From positions 62,001-126,000 of IMG/VR virus record IMGVR_UViG_3300032287_003113: a stretch of DNA of 64,000 nt; one strand, written 5' to 3'. Position numbers and translations under genes: made by a program. Each line of letters starts with the position of its first letter. The stretch's first letter is position 1. The notes beneath the pieces are model-generated. The model did not search any database. It worked only from the letters and a program-made list of their open reading frames with translations, and had not been told where the DNA came from. Below are positions 3,367 to 56,111 of the stretch, piece after piece. Source of the stretch: a virus.

Positions 3367-5207
3367 TAGTTGACTTTCTTAATACTCTCGTATTCAGCAG
3401 CTAATTGAGCTTCCAATGAAAGTGTTGCTTCGCTTACACGGTTACCTTTGTTGGTAAAAGGGTTTGCGGCCTTGTTGGCAGTGGCAGGATCTTGACTCTT
3501 TTCACGATTCATGTCGTCACCTTGTGTGGTGATTGTTTTGATACTGGCATACTTGGGACGAGGCTTGTTGACTGCTTCGGGAGCATCAGCAACATCAACC
3601 TTAGCTTCATCAATGTCTTTGGTTTTGATAGCATTGGTGCCAGGAATCTTGTCGCCAATTGCGACATCGTCGTCTGCTAGCCCCGCTGTGAATGCGTTGC
3701 CTTCGTTGGGTTCTTCAGTGATTTCATCTGTGTTGAAAATTTGACCAAATGCATTGAACTTGTCTTTGCCTGACTTCTCTGCAGCAGCATCTTGTTGTTT
3801 GATATATTCGCCACGACTGACTTCGCTTAGTCCAGCCAATTTGGCCAGTTCATCCAGTTCAGACGCTAGTGAATCTTCTTCGTAGTAGTTACGACCTTGA
3901 CCTTTTAACAATGCTGATTTGCCTGGGATTTGACTTGCTGGCAAGTTGCCTGGAATACCCATTGGTGTCTTAGGAGCATCTTTAACGTGTGCAAACGGAT
4001 CAGGGCGATCAAATTGGTCCATTTTACTGGGCACTTGTGCGGCTTCGTCAGCGACCATTTTGCCATGATAACCCTTGATCTCCATACAGTCACGTAACAA
4101 CTCACTGCAATGACCTGTTTCTTTAAACACTTTCATGTCGTTACTGAGTTCAGCCAACATTTCGTCAACTGTCTGATGTTTTTCTTTTAACAAGTTAGCA
4201 AAGTTTACACCTTCAGTAAGTCTATGTGCTAGATTGTCCATGCTTTCTGCCACTGATTTTTTGGAATCTTTTTTTGCAACTGTTTTTTCAGCATCTGGTT
4301 TCACACGACCGAATGGATCATGACCCATTTTGTTTTTGCTGGAGAATGGCAAACTGTCTTTGCTACTTTTCTCTCCGGTACTGTGTTTGCTTGGACGACC
4401 GCGGCCACGCTTCTCACCTGTGTCGGCTTTCTTGGCATGCTTGCGTGGACGACCACGCTTGCCTTTGTTTTCATCATCTTTGTCTTCGTCATCATCACTT
4501 TGATAACCAGGATAATCTTTTTTAGTATGACGGGTCACACCATCTTTGTGACTGACTTCGCCGCCTTTGTGTGTGGTTGCTTTTTCTTCAAAAAATCTTT
4601 CGTCTTGCAACAGTTTATCTACTTGGCTTGTGGAGATATTGAACTCGTCGGCCACTTGCTCAATGGCTTCTTCTGGTTCCATTTCATAACCTTTTTGCTG
4701 ATAAAAAGTATCATTTAGTTGTGCCAATCGAGCACGGATTTTTTTCACTAACTCAACTGTTGGTTTTACTTTGACTTCTTCCATCTTGGTATGTTCACAA
4801 CTACCTTCGGTCATGCCACATTCGTTGCATGTGCCTTCTCCAACGTGTTGCGGTAAACCTTTGTGCTTGGTAGCGGCAAAGTCCGTGGCATCTTTTTTGC
4901 CCATTGATTTGGCTACCTTGGCTACAGCTGGACTGGCGGCCTTAGAACCTTTTTGTGCGGCGTGAACCATGCCCATGAATTTTTGTTGAGCTTGGCTAAC
5001 TGCCTTCTCTTCAATTTTACTTTTGGCAAATTGTTCAGCTAGGCGTTGCTGTACTGAATCAACTCCAGCAAGGATACTACCTTGTGCTTCAACGCTTTCG
5101 CGGATTTCTTTTACAAGAGCAAAACGCTTTTCTTCTGCGGTTGGCTTGAGTGCTTCTAGTTTGCCTAGAATACTGTAGATGTTATCGTGTGAATGATTGT
5201 TGCTCAT
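3366..5207 (-). CDS. large charged protein with two AT-hooks, putative DNA-binding head protein
   Basis: The 613-residue protein is rich in charged and low-complexity sequence. It contains two AT-hook cores, KRGRPRKH (residues 250-257) and KRGRGRPSKH (266-275), preceded by an acidic run. There is a possible metal-binding cluster C127-x2-C130-x6-C137-x-H139 and a coiled-coil-prone N-terminal 100 residues. ELDELAKLAGL in the C-terminal part matches the RLAGL motif found in gp22 and in the gene at 1751-2146. AT-hooks bind the AT-rich minor groove. It sits among genes for putative packaged proteins, downstream of a gene with a capsid-targeting-like leader. Binding of packaged or host DNA is inferred; there is no catalytic domain. 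Confidence 0.65.
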   Translation of the reverse strand: MSNNHSHDNIYSILGKLEALKPTAEEKRFALVKEIRESVEAQGSILAGVDSVQQRLAEQFAKSKIEEKAVSQAQQKFMGMVHAAQKGSKAASPAVAKVAKSMGKKDATDFAATKHKGLPQHVGEGTCNECGMTEGSCEHTKMEEVKVKPTVELVKKIRARLAQLNDTFYQQKGYEMEPEEAIEQVADEFNISTSQVDKLLQDERFFEEKATTHKGGEVSHKDGVTRHTKKDYPGYQSDDDEDKDDENKGKRGRPRKHAKKADTGEKRGRGRPSKHSTGEKSSKDSLPFSSKNKMGHDPFGRVKPDAEKTVAKKDSKKSVAESMDNLAHRLTEGVNFANLLKEKHQTVDEMLAELSNDMKVFKETGHCSELLRDCMEIKGYHGKMVADEAAQVPSKMDQFDRPDPFAHVKDAPKTPMGIPGNLPASQIPGKSALLKGQGRNYYEEDSLASELDELAKLAGLSEVSRGEYIKQQDAAAEKSGKDKFNAFGQIFNTDEITEEPNEGNAFTAGLADDDVAIGDKIPGTNAIKTKDIDEAKVDVADAPEAVNKPRPKYASIKTITTQGDDMNREKSQDPATANKAANPFTNKGNRVSEATLSLEAQLAAEYESIKKVN

Positions 5208-48553: not shown

Positions 48554-50956
48554 TTACGCTGTAGCGTTGAAGATTTTTTCCGAAGTGTCTCTGTGGTCTT
48601 TCATAACCGAAATCATTTGATCCAATCGTTCAATCATTTCGTCCATTCCAGGTAAACGTCCATTTTTAAGTGGTGCAATCACTTCGCTGGCACCACCTTC
48701 GGCTACTTTTACGTTGACACCGCCTGTGGTAGCTGGTACAACTGCACCTTGTGCGGCTGCCACTTCAGCATGTATGTGTGGTCCCCAGACTTTTGCTTTC
48801 TCAGGATTGGCCGGTTTTATGCTTTCATCTAATACTTGGCTAAATCCGCCCATACTTTTTAATTTGGCCACTACCTCAGGATATTGTTTTAGATCGTTTA
48901 GCACCAGATCAAACGCACGACCGGAACCATGAGCAACACTATCGTCTATTCCTCGATCTTTGAAACCGCTAAAATGTTTGTAATTTCCACCCAGCATAGC
49001 ATGAACCTGTTGGGCCATTTGCATAATTGTTGCGTTGCCTTGTTGCTCTTCTCTGTCAAATCCTGATTTAATTTTGAGACCAGTGGCTGTTACTACCGGT
49101 TCGCTGCTGCTTTTTCCTTTGTTAAATCTCTCTCTGCGTTGATCAAATACCGATTTAGCTGGGCTTTGAAACGGTGCTGCTGGTGTACCAGCTGTAGGGC
49201 CACTGGGAGGAGGTGTTCCTGGTGTTAAACTTTTAATTGCTGCGTCTAGGTCTAATTTTTTTAATGCTTTTTCTATTGTGTCTACTCCGGCTGCAGTAAC
49301 TTGAGCAAATCTAGTAAGAGGCGTCAGCAAGGACTCGCCTAGTGCAGCTTTTAGTCGCTGAGTATCTTCTTCTAGTCCTTGCACAGCCTTGTCCAATGGC
49401 AACATATTGTCGGCCATTTTGTCAGCGTTTTTTCTAGCTTTTTCTGTGGCACCTTCTTGTCGCTTGAGTTGTTCTAACACTTCCTGATTTGCAAATGTAG
49501 CAATATCATTGTATTGACCGGTTAATCTAGCAGCTCGGTTAATAGCTTCAAATATGCCTGGATTTTCTCTTGCATATTTCAATGACTGCTCGCTGAGCTT
49601 GCCAGTTTCAATATTAACTTCTTCAACACTTTGATTCTGATTTCTTATCATTGCCACTTGTTGATCTATCTGCTCCCTTAACCTTGGGTTGTTAGCCAAC
49701 GCCAAATTGAATGCAGTATCAGTAGATGCTCCAGCTGAGTACACTTCCATGAAGCCTTTTTTGTACACATCGGGCATAGTGGCCAATATGCGTTGCATTT
49801 TTTCAACACCCACGGCGCCACCTTCTCTAGTAGCTTTAGCCAATACGTCTACTTCCATGGCCTGAGTTCGTGCCTTTTCCATGGCTTTTTTGGCATCTTG
49901 ACCTGTGATGTCTGAAATAATACGCAGTTCTTTACCATATTGCATGGTGATTTCTGCTATCTGGCGATCACTCAGTGCTCTGCGATCTCCAGCTGCATTT
50001 TGACGTGCCATAACCTGTGCAGCCAGTTCAGCCTGTTCTTCAGCACTATATCCTAGATTACGCAGTTGTATACCCAGTTGACTGTTACGCAACTCTCGGC
50101 TGATTCCGCCAATTCTCCTTGTGGCTTCTCCTAGCCCAAGACCCATATTGGTAAAATCTTCTCTGGCATTTTTTACCACTGTGGCCAGCTGGGCAATGTC
50201 CAATCCAGCTCTGGCAGCTTCTTGTCGCATTTCGGTCATGCCGCCGGCAAAAATTGCACCAGCACTGGTTATGTCTTTGAACCCGGCTTGCGTTTTCTTG
50301 AGTTCGTCGCCTAAAAACTCTACACCGTCCTTGACTTTTTCTGCACTCTTGCCAATTAAAAATTCGCCCAGCTTGCCAAGACCGGCTACCACCAATCCAA
50401 TTGCTCGACCCCACGGTCCCATCAATGCAATAATAAGTCCAGCTGTTTCGGCTACACCACCCAAGGCTTTACTAGCTGCTACACCAGCATCAATTGTTTT
50501 TAAACTGGCTTTGGTTGCTGCTTCAACACCAGATGCACCCGATTGCAAACTTTTTGCAAAATCCCGTGTGCCTTCGTAGATGGTCTGTGCTAGTGATCCA
50601 ATACCTGTACCTAAATTGGACAAGCCGGCACTGACGTTTTTTGTTATTGCTGTTTTCTTTAAATCTGCCTTGCTTGATTCAAGTTCATCTACACGTTCAG
50701 CATTACGAGATTTTTTTGCTTCTTTGATGGCACGATTTAACTCGTCCATTTCTCTGACCACGTTTTGAATAGGTTGTTTGGTACCATCTAAAAAATCACC
50801 AAAGCCTTTGAGTACTGGTTGCTGTCGTTTGAGATTGTCAGTAAATGCTTTGATGTGTTTTTGAAAGTCTTCAACATTTTTTGGATCAAAGGTGGCCTTG
50901 TTGCCAGTCAATTGCTCAATTTTTGCTAAAAACTCTTCTGCGGTCATGTTACTCAT
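48554..50956 (-). CDS. gp29: tape-measure-like protein with M15-like peptidase domain
   Basis: The 800-residue protein is mostly helical, with hydrophobic Ala/Gly-rich segments at about residues 105-200 (TAGLIIALMGPWGRAIGLVVAGLG) as expected for a tape-measure protein. After a Pro-rich linker (TPGTPPPSGPTAGTPAAP) it has a C-terminal domain with the zinc peptidase M15 pattern: S673-x2-H676-x2-GRAFD683 and H727-I-H729. M15 enzymes cleave peptidoglycan peptides. A tape-measure protein with a muralytic domain could open the wall during DNA entry. It lies between portal and gp26. The gp29 label is from position; the sequence is not clearly alignable to T4 gp29 by eye. Confidence 0.7.
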   Translation of the reverse strand: MSNMTAEEFLAKIEQLTGNKATFDPKNVEDFQKHIKAFTDNLKRQQPVLKGFGDFLDGTKQPIQNVVREMDELNRAIKEAKKSRNAERVDELESSKADLKKTAITKNVSAGLSNLGTGIGSLAQTIYEGTRDFAKSLQSGASGVEAATKASLKTIDAGVAASKALGGVAETAGLIIALMGPWGRAIGLVVAGLGKLGEFLIGKSAEKVKDGVEFLGDELKKTQAGFKDITSAGAIFAGGMTEMRQEAARAGLDIAQLATVVKNAREDFTNMGLGLGEATRRIGGISRELRNSQLGIQLRNLGYSAEEQAELAAQVMARQNAAGDRRALSDRQIAEITMQYGKELRIISDITGQDAKKAMEKARTQAMEVDVLAKATREGGAVGVEKMQRILATMPDVYKKGFMEVYSAGASTDTAFNLALANNPRLREQIDQQVAMIRNQNQSVEEVNIETGKLSEQSLKYARENPGIFEAINRAARLTGQYNDIATFANQEVLEQLKRQEGATEKARKNADKMADNMLPLDKAVQGLEEDTQRLKAALGESLLTPLTRFAQVTAAGVDTIEKALKKLDLDAAIKSLTPGTPPPSGPTAGTPAAPFQSPAKSVFDQRRERFNKGKSSSEPVVTATGLKIKSGFDREEQQGNATIMQMAQQVHAMLGGNYKHFSGFKDRGIDDSVAHGSGRAFDLVLNDLKQYPEVVAKLKSMGGFSQVLDESIKPANPEKAKVWGPHIHAEVAAAQGAVVPATTGGVNVKVAEGGASEVIAPLKNGRLPGMDEMIERLDQMISVMKDHRDTSEKIFNATA

Positions 50957-51031: not shown

Positions 51032-51883
51032 ATGGAAAATGCTATTCAAAACCCTTTAGTCAAGTACTTTAGACAGCCGTCAATCTACTTAAAATTGCCA
51101 TCAAACGGTCAATATTGGAAAGAAGGGGCAGTAAATTTACCAGTAACTGGGGAAATTCCTGTGTACCCAATGACTGCCAGGGACGAAGTTACTTTGCGTA
51201 CTCCTGATGCACTCATGAACGGAGCTGGCGTTGTTGACGTAATACACAGTTGTTGCCCCAATATCACAGATGCTTGGAGTATGCCCAGCGTGGATGTGGA
51301 TGCTGTGTTGATCGCTATCAGGATTGCCAGTTACGGTGCAGAAATGCCAGTTGATACCAGTTGCCCCAATTGCGGTGCAGAAAACACCCACAATGTCGAT
51401 TTGAGTGTGAGACTATCGGGAATCACTTGTCCAGACTACAACAAAAAAATCAGTTTACCCGATGAGTTGCATGTAAAATGCACGCCGCAGGCATATTTCA
51501 GTGTTAATAGAAAAAATACCATATCGTTTGAAGAACAACGGCTAGTACAGGCCCTAGAACAAACTGATGAAAACTCAGAACAACGCATGTCACAAATTGC
51601 CGACAGCATGACCCGATTGATACAGATCAGCATAGACACAGTAACAGACAGCACCGAGTACATTGAAATGCCCGACGGAACCCGTGTTACAGATAAAGAA
51701 TTTATCAAAGAGTTTTATAGCAATGCTAATGGCAGCGTTGTACGTAACGTACAAGAACAACTGGCTGAAATCAACAACCAAGGCGCCGTCAAGGATCAAT
51801 CAGCTGAGTGCAACGAGTGTAAAACTGAATATAAAATTCCTATCATGTTTGACTACGCAAATTTTTTCGCAATCGGCTCCTGA
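51032..51883 (+). CDS. gp26: baseplate hub subunit gp26
   Basis: The 283-residue protein resembles the T4 gp26 family (PF12322): NPLVKYFRQPSIYLKLPSNGQYW, PVYPMTARDEVTLRTPDALMNGAGVVDVI, CCPNITDAWSMPSVDVDAVLIAIRIASYG, then a C-x2-C ... C-x2-C zinc-ribbon-like arrangement (CPNCG and CNEC with the end YKIPIMFDYANFF). It is needed for baseplate hub assembly. It has a TATAAATA promoter (50987-50994). Its last codons carry two overlapping slippery heptamers, and a conserved-looking ORF in the -1 frame continues beyond its stop. Confidence 0.85.
   Translation: MENAIQNPLVKYFRQPSIYLKLPSNGQYWKEGAVNLPVTGEIPVYPMTARDEVTLRTPDALMNGAGVVDVIHSCCPNITDAWSMPSVDVDAVLIAIRIASYGAEMPVDTSCPNCGAENTHNVDLSVRLSGITCPDYNKKISLPDELHVKCTPQAYFSVNRKNTISFEEQRLVQALEQTDENSEQRMSQIADSMTRLIQISIDTVTDSTEYIEMPDGTRVTDKEFIKEFYSNANGSVVRNVQEQLAEINNQGAVKDQSAECNECKTEYKIPIMFDYANFFAIGS
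51858..51868 (+). promoter_or_regulatory. candidate -1 frameshift slippery site at end of gp26
   Basis: In the gp26 frame the codons GCA-AAT-TTT-TTC contain A-AAT-TTT (51859-51865) and T-TTT-TTC (51862-51868), both of the X-XXY-YYZ form, 13-22 nt before the gp26 stop at 51881. The -1 frame opens at 51853, just upstream, and stays open to 52098. Slippage would give a gp26 fusion of about 355 residues, as in the G/GT tail chaperones of other phages. No stimulatory structure was proven. Confidence 0.5.
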
Positions 51884-51912
51884 CATTAGACAATGACGCC
51901 GTCGTAAAACTG

Positions 51913-52098
51913 TTGGAATCTTACGATAAAGAGTCGAGAGCCGTTAAAAAAGAAGCGTTGCAAATGGCCTGGTACATGCGAGGTGGGTTGACCTATAACG
52001 ATGCTATGGCACTGAGCTCATCAGAACGAGAGATAATTGGTGAAATAATTAAAAAGAACATGGAAACTACAGAGAAATCGGGATTACCATTCTTCTAA
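51913..52098 (+). CDS. gp51-position ORF in -1 frame after gp26
   Basis: The ORF encodes EALQMAWYMRGGLTYNDAMALSSSEREII and ends KKNMETTEKSGLPFF, a family found directly after gp26 in aquatic T4-like phages, at the place of T4 gene 51 (hub assembly). The first possible initiator by usual rules is TTG at 51913, without a Shine-Dalgarno. In frame, the sequence is open back to 51853 (RKFFRNRLLTLDNDAVVKLL), with no ATG or GTG. Either initiation at TTG/CTG or a -1 frameshift from gp26 must produce it. A hairpin follows its stop (52107-52125). Confidence 0.65.
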   Translation: MESYDKESRAVKKEALQMAWYMRGGLTYNDAMALSSSEREIIGEIIKKNMETTEKSGLPFF

Positions 52099-52567
52099 CT
52101 GATTTAAGATTAGCTACGCTAATCTATTGATTTCGCTTTGCTCATCAATGTTTTTCTTCTTTGTTGCTTTTCCGTATTATCCAGATTAATTGGTCACAAT
52201 TCACCGTATGCACGGTGAACATGATTGAGCATTATCCGAGTAGCACAGTCATTTATTATAAAGAGATTGTATTTACATACGCAGAGGCGGTTGACCGGTA
52301 CCCCTTACTCTAGCTTCACATATCAACGGAACCCTAGTGACCCGATAATAAATCCAAGTCCTATAAGCTGGGGTTGTATCTTTTTCACATAGCCCCGACC
52401 ATTTTTTGCCTTAAGTTAGCATTAGCCTTGCACACCCGAGCAACATCTAGACTGGGTATCTCACCAGTCCGCAACGGGAGTCGAGCTGCCTCGACCAAAC
52501 AGAGTGCGAATTCCATAATAAGAATATAACTTTGTGTTTATTGCAGAATGACTTTGAGTCGAGTGTG
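52099..52567. other. gene-free region with several hairpins, candidate structured RNA
   Basis: This is the only stretch over 300 bp without a credible ORF, lying between convergent genes. Visible hairpins: AGATTAGC/GCTAATCT (52107-52125, just after the gp51-position stop), TTCACCGT/ACGGTGAA with ATGC loop (52200-52219), GACTGG/CCAGTC (52450-52469) and GTCGAG/CTCGAC with CTGC loop (52480-52495). A GGGG/CCCC pair near 52371-52396 may enclose a further stem. No tRNA T-arm, group I intron core or tmRNA tag was recognised. A TGTAAATA box reads leftward at 52270-52277. Confidence 0.4.
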
Positions 52568-52996
52568 CTAAATCTTGTTGATAATATGTGAGCCATGTAC
52601 ACGGACCTGTATGTGTCCGTTATAATAATCTTCGGTTTCTAAAACTCTGCGAGCAAATTGTTCTCTCGCCTCGATGTAACTACATTCAGATTTACTTTTG
52701 CAGTAGTATAGTATTTCTCTACTGAAATTGTCAACACCCAATGCAACCACATCTTTTGTTAATTCTGGACTGGAACCATAGTATGTTTGCCAGTCTGAAT
52801 CAATTTTACCACGAATCTTCTTGCGTTTCTTTTTACCATTTTTTAGTTTGACCATTCGGTAAGTGGTCTTGCTAAATTTTGCAAGTTTTTTGCCAATATA
52901 CTTCCGGCCGGTTAGGTTATTTGTGATCAAATAAACAAAACCAACACAATCTTCGGGTAGCGTTTCTACTTGAGTATTTTCGTAAATCCATGACAT
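52568..52996 (-). CDS. GIY-YIG nuclease-like protein
   Basis: The 142-residue protein carries GFVYLI (residues 19-24) and KYIGKK (32-37), the two strands of the GIY-YIG nuclease fold, and downstream SDWQTYYGSS, a FSREILYYC segment and a Glu-rich helix with YIEAREQFARRV that could supply the catalytic Glu. The basic stretch KLKNGKKKRKKIRGK (about 50-64) suits DNA binding. Such proteins are common in T4-like phages as free-standing Seg-like endonucleases or as uncharacterised relatives. It borders the hairpin-rich gene-free region. Confidence 0.75.
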   Translation of the reverse strand: MSWIYENTQVETLPEDCVGFVYLITNNLTGRKYIGKKLAKFSKTTYRMVKLKNGKKKRKKIRGKIDSDWQTYYGSSPELTKDVVALGVDNFSREILYYCKSKSECSYIEAREQFARRVLETEDYYNGHIQVRVHGSHIINKI

Positions 52997-54821: not shown

Positions 54822-56111
54822 TTATATACTAAAATCTTGATCTAGCCAAGCAAAATGAGCTCGCCAATTGGTATTGCGTCTTTGGTCCAGGGTTGTCAGA
54901 TATGTTTTTAATTTATCGATTTGACTGACATTATTTTTAGATGCTAAACTTGTGGTAGCAATACCTTGCATGGCCTTACGCTGTGCTTGCTGTGTGGGAG
55001 TAGTATCGGGCATCAACTTCAATATCTGGTCAAAGTCGTTGGCAAACACAGCACCATCGAACAAATATGGATTATCAAATTCTCCGGACGTATTAAAACT
55101 GTGAATGATGGGTTCTGCTGCCCATTCCCGTTGGAACCATGTGGCTGTGGCTGTTTGTTTGGTATTCCAGTGATTGATACGTTCCAATAACTTGGGCAAC
55201 GATTTAATAGTCAAGGCTGATACAGCACTATTAATGCTTAAGGATATCCATGGCTGATTCAACAGCAATTCAAAGTTACGTTGCCATTGTGCTAGGTCGA
55301 GCCCATAGCGAACATATTCCTGCTCACTGTCCCAACAATCTAAACTGGCAGTGATTTGCAGTTTCCATATTTTGTTTGACAGCACCAATTTTCTAAATTG
55401 CTGTAAGTATCGTTCAAATCGTGGTGTGGGTATGTTTAGATTGGTTACTACACTAAAAATTAAATCGGGATTGGCATGAGTTTGCCAAAACTCAATGCTG
55501 TCGTCTAGTTCGGTCATTAAAAACGGCTCACCACCTAAAATATGATACCGTTTGATTGCTTTGTAACGATCGTTTTCGTTCAAGTATTGCCATAGACCTG
55601 CAACCATTTGATCATAGTGGTCATTGTGTTGTGCTTGTTTGATGTCAAACGTTCGAGTGTGAAATGAATCTCCAAACTTTCTATTTTCTTCTTCCCACAG
55701 GCTGCTATGATGCGGCCCACAGTATACGCATTTCATATTACAGGTATTTTTAAAATAAACTTCCAGTATGGTAGGAGTAACAGTTGTGGATGATTCATCT
55801 GTGTCAAGCTCGGGCGGCACCAACCACCCGTTATCTTGCTGTAGCGTACTTTGTCTATCACTTAAGCCACCTGCATCTTCTACGTTTTTGCAATATTCAC
55901 AACCAGCCCTGGGCCACGCACCTGCAAGCATGGTGTTTCTAGCTGAAATTTTTTCAGGCAAATTATGAAATGATGCAAAGTTGTCGGCTGGTATGGCATA
56001 TTTTTCTGTGCGGTGACAACTGGCACTAGTACCACTGTTAAAGTAGACGGTGCTCCATGCCCATTTTAATAAACAAGCAGATTCTGTGCGTATGGGAAAC
56101 ACTTTATTCAT
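54822..56111 (-). CDS. radical SAM protein
   Basis: The 429-residue protein has the radical SAM cluster motif C124-x3-C128-x2-C131 (NTCNMKCVYCG), a GGEPF motif (SAM-binding) and ITASLDCW, plus extra cysteines upstream (C32, C71 and C74 in GCEYC). The upstream cysteines could hold an auxiliary cluster, as in twitch/SPASM-type enzymes. It resembles phage radical SAM proteins of unknown substrate. It lies between gp46 and gp47 and overlaps the next gene by 8 bp, so it is co-transcribed with recombination genes. Possible roles are modification of a protein, tRNA or nucleotide. Confidence 0.85.
   Translation of the reverse strand: MNKVFPIRTESACLLKWAWSTVYFNSGTSASCHRTEKYAIPADNFASFHNLPEKISARNTMLAGAWPRAGCEYCKNVEDAGGLSDRQSTLQQDNGWLVPPELDTDESSTTVTPTILEVYFKNTCNMKCVYCGPHHSSLWEEENRKFGDSFHTRTFDIKQAQHNDHYDQMVAGLWQYLNENDRYKAIKRYHILGGEPFLMTELDDSIEFWQTHANPDLIFSVVTNLNIPTPRFERYLQQFRKLVLSNKIWKLQITASLDCWDSEQEYVRYGLDLAQWQRNFELLLNQPWISLSINSAVSALTIKSLPKLLERINHWNTKQTATATWFQREWAAEPIIHSFNTSGEFDNPYLFDGAVFANDFDQILKLMPDTTPTQQAQRKAMQGIATTSLASKNNVSQIDKLKTYLTTLDQRRNTNWRAHFAWLDQDFSI

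Follow-up and report, generated by a model that had tools for sequence, protein, structure and literature searches.

The gp26 locus and its predicted products

We analysed a window of 64,000 nucleotides that forms part of a 219,879-base IMG/VR virus record. Its plus strand carries a gp26-family gene, the product of which matches PF12322 (T4_baseplate; E 1.1e-18; score 68.2, cut-off 24.5 bits) and phrog_150 (baseplate hub, E 2e-22), and which by its sequence belongs to the T4-like tail assembly chaperone (TAC) family (gp26/PF12322). The gene ends in the codons GCA AAT TTT TTC GCA ATC GGC TCC TGA (TGA at 51881-51883), and because of these final codons two overlapping heptamers, T_TTT_TTC and A_AAT_TTT, are both in the gp26 frame, with 12 nt between T_TTT_TTC and the gp26 end. 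From 51853 to 52098 the -1 frame stays open, and a TGA at 51850-51852 bounds it upstream. A slip into this frame at T_TTT_TTC would yield a 355-aa fusion, TAC-NC, next to the short product, TAC-N; its junction would read ...DYANFFRNRLL..., and the predicted fusion peptide of the window is IPIMFDYANFFR. The features of the locus are listed in Table 1.

Table 1. Features at and around the gp26 gene, in window coordinates.
Feature	Coordinates	Strand	Remarks
Tape-measure-like protein	48554..50956	-	800 aa; divergently transcribed neighbour of gp26
gp26-family gene, short product TAC-N	51032..51883	+	283 aa; PF12322, phrog_150
Overlapping heptamer A_AAT_TTT	51859..51865	+	in gp26 frame; not conserved, probably incidental
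Slippery heptamer T_TTT_TTC	51862..51868	+	in gp26 frame; invariant in 80/80 gp26-selected loci (best 80 of 596)
-1 frame extension, C-terminal domain of TAC-NC	51868..52098	+	76 codons and stop
RNA stem S1, 5' arm	51874..51884	+	MFE fold, covariation; begins 5 nt past heptamer
Possible pseudoknot arm S3 (TGACGC)	51894..51899	+	about 10 nearest relatives; suggestive only
Inner hairpin S2, 5' arm	51901..51907	+	own-partner pairing exceeds swapped partners
Inner hairpin S2, 3' arm	51921..51927	+	own-partner pairing exceeds swapped partners
RNA stem S1, 3' arm	51933..51943	+	MFE fold, covariation
Possible S3 partner (GCGTTG)	51955..51960	+	about 10 nearest relatives; suggestive only

Conservation of the slippery site across phages

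An earlier note on this DNA had proposed a programmed -1 frameshift of the G/GT type at the end of gp26, and suggested aligning the junctions of relatives as a check. A first search with the 81-aa downstream ORF gave 43 viral loci, and in 43/43 a gp26 homologue ends a few codons past TTTTTTC, with the ORF in its -1 frame. A second search used the gp26 alignment only, which avoids selecting on the site; of its 596 matching stretches, the best 80 were kept. In all of these best 80 of 596, T_TTT_TTC lies in frame 3-8 codons before the gp26 stop, and a -1 tail comes after it, about 68-74 aa in length where the contig does not run out. The slippery site and the -1 frame are thus conserved across the junctions compared. 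We also used a set of 125 distinct loci that, unlike the 80-locus set, was filtered on the heptamer; the loci in both sets are related.

Both heptamers had been put forward as slippery. Both are indeed in frame, and T_TTT_TTC precedes the gp26 stop in all 43 relatives of the first search and in the best 80 of 596 of the second, but conservation does not extend to A_AAT_TTT. The codon ahead of TTT TTC, whose third base is the first base of T_TTT_TTC, varies among loci (AAT, AGT, GAT, CAT, CGT, ACT, GCT), and A_AAT_TTT is therefore not the conserved signal; it was rejected as the slip site, being absent wherever that codon is AGT, GAT, CAT, CGT, ACT or GCT. An SD-like upstream stimulator was seen in just 4/125 loci.

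Named phages with T_TTT_TTC and a -1 ORF after a gp26 homologue include Agrobacterium phage Atu_ph07, Sinorhizobium phage Phosso, coliphage 121Q, Pectobacterium phage CBB, RaK2, XbC2, S-CAM8, S-RIM12, Syn10, S-WAM1, ACG-2014f, Mendera, Vibrio phage K491 and ACP17. The arrangement that would speak against frameshifting, a downstream gene with its own ATG and ribosome-binding site and no slippery site, is absent in the clade and confined to a few distant phages, among them Cygsa01 and K441; these two lack T_TTT_TTC and have a TAATG at the stop from which the -1 frame could be reinitiated. Mendera, K491, 121Q and XbC2 likewise have TAATG or a -1 frame ATG that overlaps the stop. Some lineages may therefore make a free C-terminal domain by reinitiation, besides the fusion.

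Several loci depart from the common pattern. L047, L054, L055, L221, L222 and L223 carry TAATG or a stop-overlapping ATG in the -1 frame, most of them alongside T_TTT_TTC. Phage C48C1 (L220) has T_TTT_TTT directly before the stop and a -1 ORF of 59 aa, and the ackermannvirus Kevin (a Serratia phage, L052) has G_GTT_TTC before the gp26 stop (3690-3699 of that locus) with a -1 ORF downstream. S-SCSM1 (L051, 3670-3871) has T_TTT_TTC but encodes its conserved downstream domain in the +1 (or -2) frame, not -1, which may reflect a sequencing indel or a different recoding event. In L007 and L008, T_TTT_TTC occurs once more at position 1378, about 1.6 kb ahead of the gp26 site and on its strand, and there too the -1 frame is open; this may be chance.

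Coding potential of the -1 frame

The earlier note had described the -1 ORF as lacking ATG, GTG and a ribosome-binding site while encoding a conserved-looking domain, and both parts of that description held. In the window, the -1 frame has no usable start or ribosome-binding site; it contains no ATG or GTG before the middle of the conserved domain, and the earliest start candidates are weak ones (CTG 51880, TTG 51913). Likewise, 70 of the 125 distinct loci have no ATG or GTG between the heptamer and 20 codons past the gp26 stop, and an SD-like motif precedes such a codon in only 7/125. Downstream of the site, median dN/dS among related loci is 0.11 in the -1 frame, compared with about 1.6-1.7 in the other two frames, which indicates that the -1 ORF is protein-coding and under purifying selection. 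FFR is invariant in the alignment of the -1 domain (A2), and the -1 frame residue after FF is Arg in 124/125 distinct loci. The conserved -1 protein begins at this FFR, which is encoded at the heptamer, upstream of the gp26 stop. The 0-frame end is conserved as well (NFFA..S stop).

A conserved RNA stem downstream of the site

In the window, stem S1 pairs CGGCTC (51874-51879) with GAGCCG (51938-51943) and TGAC (51881-51884) with GTCG (51933-51936). The window's own stem fold has an MFE of -19.1 kcal/mol, with a z of only -1.35. Across 44 gap-free aligned relatives, the 10-pair S1 forms in 81.8% of cells, as against 23-50% for slid versions, although the S1 register was itself picked by scanning and this control therefore somewhat favours the stem. 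In the same alignment, two-sided changes occur in 21 cells, and the covariation score was reached by 0/500 shuffles. At pair 17-76, 25 sequences have CG and 11 have UA, and a tree of the neighbouring protein sequence gives six Watson-Crick state changes there; the paired changes in S1 link unrelated codons (CTC with AGA, CTT with AAA). Within S1, the own-partner pairing of inner hairpin S2 beats swapped partners (z about 7), while its fixed register pairs in only 54.5% of cells. A pseudoknot in the window's own group, between S3 and its partner, is suggestive only. RNAalifold did not predict a consensus structure when run on the window group, in disagreement with the explicit pair counting that found the stem, probably because of the 48-nt loop and the lineage-specific registers. 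No Rfam families or tRNAs were found near the site.

In a sister group with 77-aa tails, a stem formed by GTAAGATCT and AGATCTTAC has 10 pairs at 92% and 20 Watson-Crick state changes. Its loop pairs with sequence past the stem, like an H-type pseudoknot, and the pseudoknot score averages 16.2 compared with 12.97 +- 0.37 for swapped partners, with 0/2000 swaps reaching the observed value. Considering the broader set, an uninterrupted stem of at least 7 bp with its 5' arm 3-7 nt past the heptamer is present in 101/125 loci, and one of at least 10 bp in 64/125, compared with 8-44 and 0-10, respectively, at twelve shifted positions over the same 125 loci. An all-register scan ranked the same helix first in both large groups, and Atu_ph07 and Phosso have perfect 10-bp stems at this spacing. 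The 3' partner differs between lineages; the distance of the 5' arm from the heptamer is kept.

From these comparisons, the downstream stem is highly likely to be a real conserved RNA element, and it would probably stimulate slippage. More broadly, we lean towards a reading in which TAC frameshifting in this T4-like branch is driven by a fast-evolving stimulatory RNA, with a 5' arm fixed 3-7 nt behind T_TTT_TTC and a 3' partner that has relocated among three or more sites (loops of about 16, 27 and 48-50 nt); one group would have an H-type pseudoknot, and the window's group a long stem with an inner hairpin inside it. Our literature search, which was far from complete, found no published report of this RNA structure.

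Structure and putative role of the products

The AlphaFold2 model of gp26 (pLDDT 88) has as its best PDB match the HK97 tail assembly chaperone 2ob9, a weak one (E 0.39, probability 0.66; 350,542 chains). The C-terminal (-1) domain was modelled as four helices (mean pLDDT 88), and this model had no match. By hhalign, gp26 matches T4 gp26 weakly; Pfam links both. The neighbouring gene adjoins gp26 on the opposite strand, a position common to Phosso, 121Q, CBB, XbC2 and RaK2, and its tape-measure identity is weak. It has weak local BLASTP similarity to RaK2 ORF088, annotated as tape-measure-like, no protein-family match in Pfam and PHROG searches, and no BLASTP homology to the protein at Phosso's tape-measure position. 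Given the weak fold match, the unmatched C-terminal domain and the weak similarity of the neighbour, a chaperone role rests mainly on family membership and the literature, and by analogy the gp26 products would act as tail chaperones. Counted against the overall reading, besides the weak fold match and the unmatched domain, are the opposite strand of the tape-measure-like gene, which differs from lambda, and the CBB record, which names its gp26 a structural protein whereas lambda G/GT products are absent from virions (PMC5009743); the low z of the window's stem and the RNAalifold outcome weigh the same way.

Probable programmed frameshifting and its alternatives

Slippery site, reading frame, coding domain and RNA stem are all conserved among the compared loci, and every conservation test favours the G/GT-type frameshift that had been proposed. 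T_TTT_TTC fits the X_XXY_YYZ heptamer of programmed -1 frameshift cassettes, in which a stem or pseudoknot shortly downstream is common but not obligatory. We infer that programmed -1 frameshifting very likely makes both TAC-N (283 aa) and TAC-NC (355 aa). Most ribosomes would stop at the TGA at 51881-51883 and release TAC-N. A minority would pause at T_TTT_TTC, aided by the RNA stem 5 nt downstream, re-pair one base back and read the -1 frame to 52098, producing TAC-NC. By analogy with lambda G/GT, TAC-N would cover the tape-measure protein, and TAC-NC would recruit tail-tube subunits through its C-terminal domain.

The same fusion could in principle arise if RNA polymerase added a U at the six-T run, as an mRNA with seven U would encode an identical product; the invariance of the run suits this explanation. 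Transcriptional slippage is nevertheless very unlikely, given that the run always lies in the frame that lets both tRNAs re-pair, that the conserved stem 3-7 nt past the heptamer and the pseudoknot fit ribosomal pausing, and that six T is short for efficient polymerase slippage. Were the downstream domain instead a separate gene, translated by reinitiation from CTG 51880, TTG 51913 or another weak start, the TAATG or stop-overlapping ATG of Cygsa01, K441, Mendera, K491, 121Q and XbC2 would be precedents for it. This we consider very unlikely: the window and more than half of the distinct loci offer no ATG or GTG near the stop, the conserved protein starts at the FFR of the heptamer, ahead of the gp26 stop, and an invariant slippery site is not expected if reinitiation alone were used. 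An assembly error that split one ORF, or an accidental heptamer, might be suspected in a metagenomic contig, but comparison has already refuted it, leaving a negligible probability; the same frame break recurs in 80/80 independently fetched loci (best 80 of 596) and in isolate genomes, and the conserved 0-frame end points the same way.

Programmed frameshifting could also operate with a stem that merely reflects coding constraint in the -1 frame and has no stimulatory effect. Both arms are coding, 24/125 loci show no perfect stem of 7 bp or more at that place and RNAalifold found no structure, all of which agree with such a view. Yet the paired changes join unrelated codons, Watson-Crick switches arose six times independently at one pair, the sister group has 20 of them, and the 3' partners vary by lineage at a constant distance of the 5' arm from the heptamer, so that we regard coding constraint as an unlikely account of the stem.

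Relation to known systems

Frameshifting has reportedly been seen in several T4-like groups, the genes in T4 itself being 26 and 51. The earlier note knew of no such event for gp26, and this did not stand: the TAC genes of T4-like phages were identified before (Vladimirov, Gautam and Davidson, 2022; Virology 566:9-15), and, as far as the citing papers describe that work, -1 frameshifting was noted there in TAC-N genes (PMC12846349, PMC10885494). According to these citing papers, poly-T -1 signals are known in the TAC-N genes of T4-like phages (PMC12846349), and some T4-like phages have a separate short gene and a fused long gene instead (PMC10885494). The genes described there share with ours PF12322, a poly-T -1 site at the 3' end of TAC-N and a C-terminal domain in the -1 frame. 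The kind of frameshift is already known, and what is probably added here, judging by the papers that cite Vladimirov et al (2022), is the uncultured jumbo-phage clade and the downstream RNA element. Vandenendeviridae and Andersonviridae, which are other phage families, likewise have a myovirus TAC gene in which a -1 frameshift at a poly-T site is conserved, there with the motif GTTTTT (PMC12846349).

The locus resembles lambda G/GT and other long-tailed phage TACs in the predicted -1 slip, which falls close to the 3' end of a small tail-chaperone ORF and would give a short and a long product, and in the putative tape-measure gene next to it (Xu 2004; PMC5009743). It differs in its T_TTT_TTC site, the divergent orientation of the tape-measure-like gene and the downstream stem or pseudoknot. 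The lambda G/GT products are absent from virions, and a 2016 review describes G/GT frameshifting as conserved in long-tailed phages and names T4 as an exception (PMC5009743). In T4, gp26 and gp51 both match PF12322, but they are two separate genes on opposite strands with no frameshift; homology between the -1 domain and the C-terminus of T4 gp51 was not detected. Jumbo phages related to Atu_ph07, RaK2 and 121Q keep the arrangement seen in the window, as do cyanophages and hundreds of uncultured phages, and such wide conservation fits frameshifting as the ancestral state, with the two genes of T4 (26 and 51) derived. In many genomes, the downstream ORF annotated as hypothetical or as 'baseplate hub assembly catalyst' would be the tail of gp26. 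The RNA element offers a comparative system for the evolution of a stimulator while both frames remain coding.

Other features of the window

Between the -1 ORF and the next gene lie about 470 bases without a convincing gene (52099-52567), with hairpin-like stretches near 52108-52150 and neither a tRNA nor a match in Rfam; at the equivalent place, 121Q, CBB and XbC2 have similar gaps, about 770-840 bases long. On the minus strand, a 142-aa ORF at 52568-52996 (GFVYLITNNLTGRKYIGKK) resembles, by eye only, a GIY-YIG endonuclease domain. Also on the minus strand, a radical SAM-like protein is encoded at 54822-56111 beside a gp46-like gene; its Pfam match is under the cut-off, and it matches phrog_1802 with an E of 5e-8.
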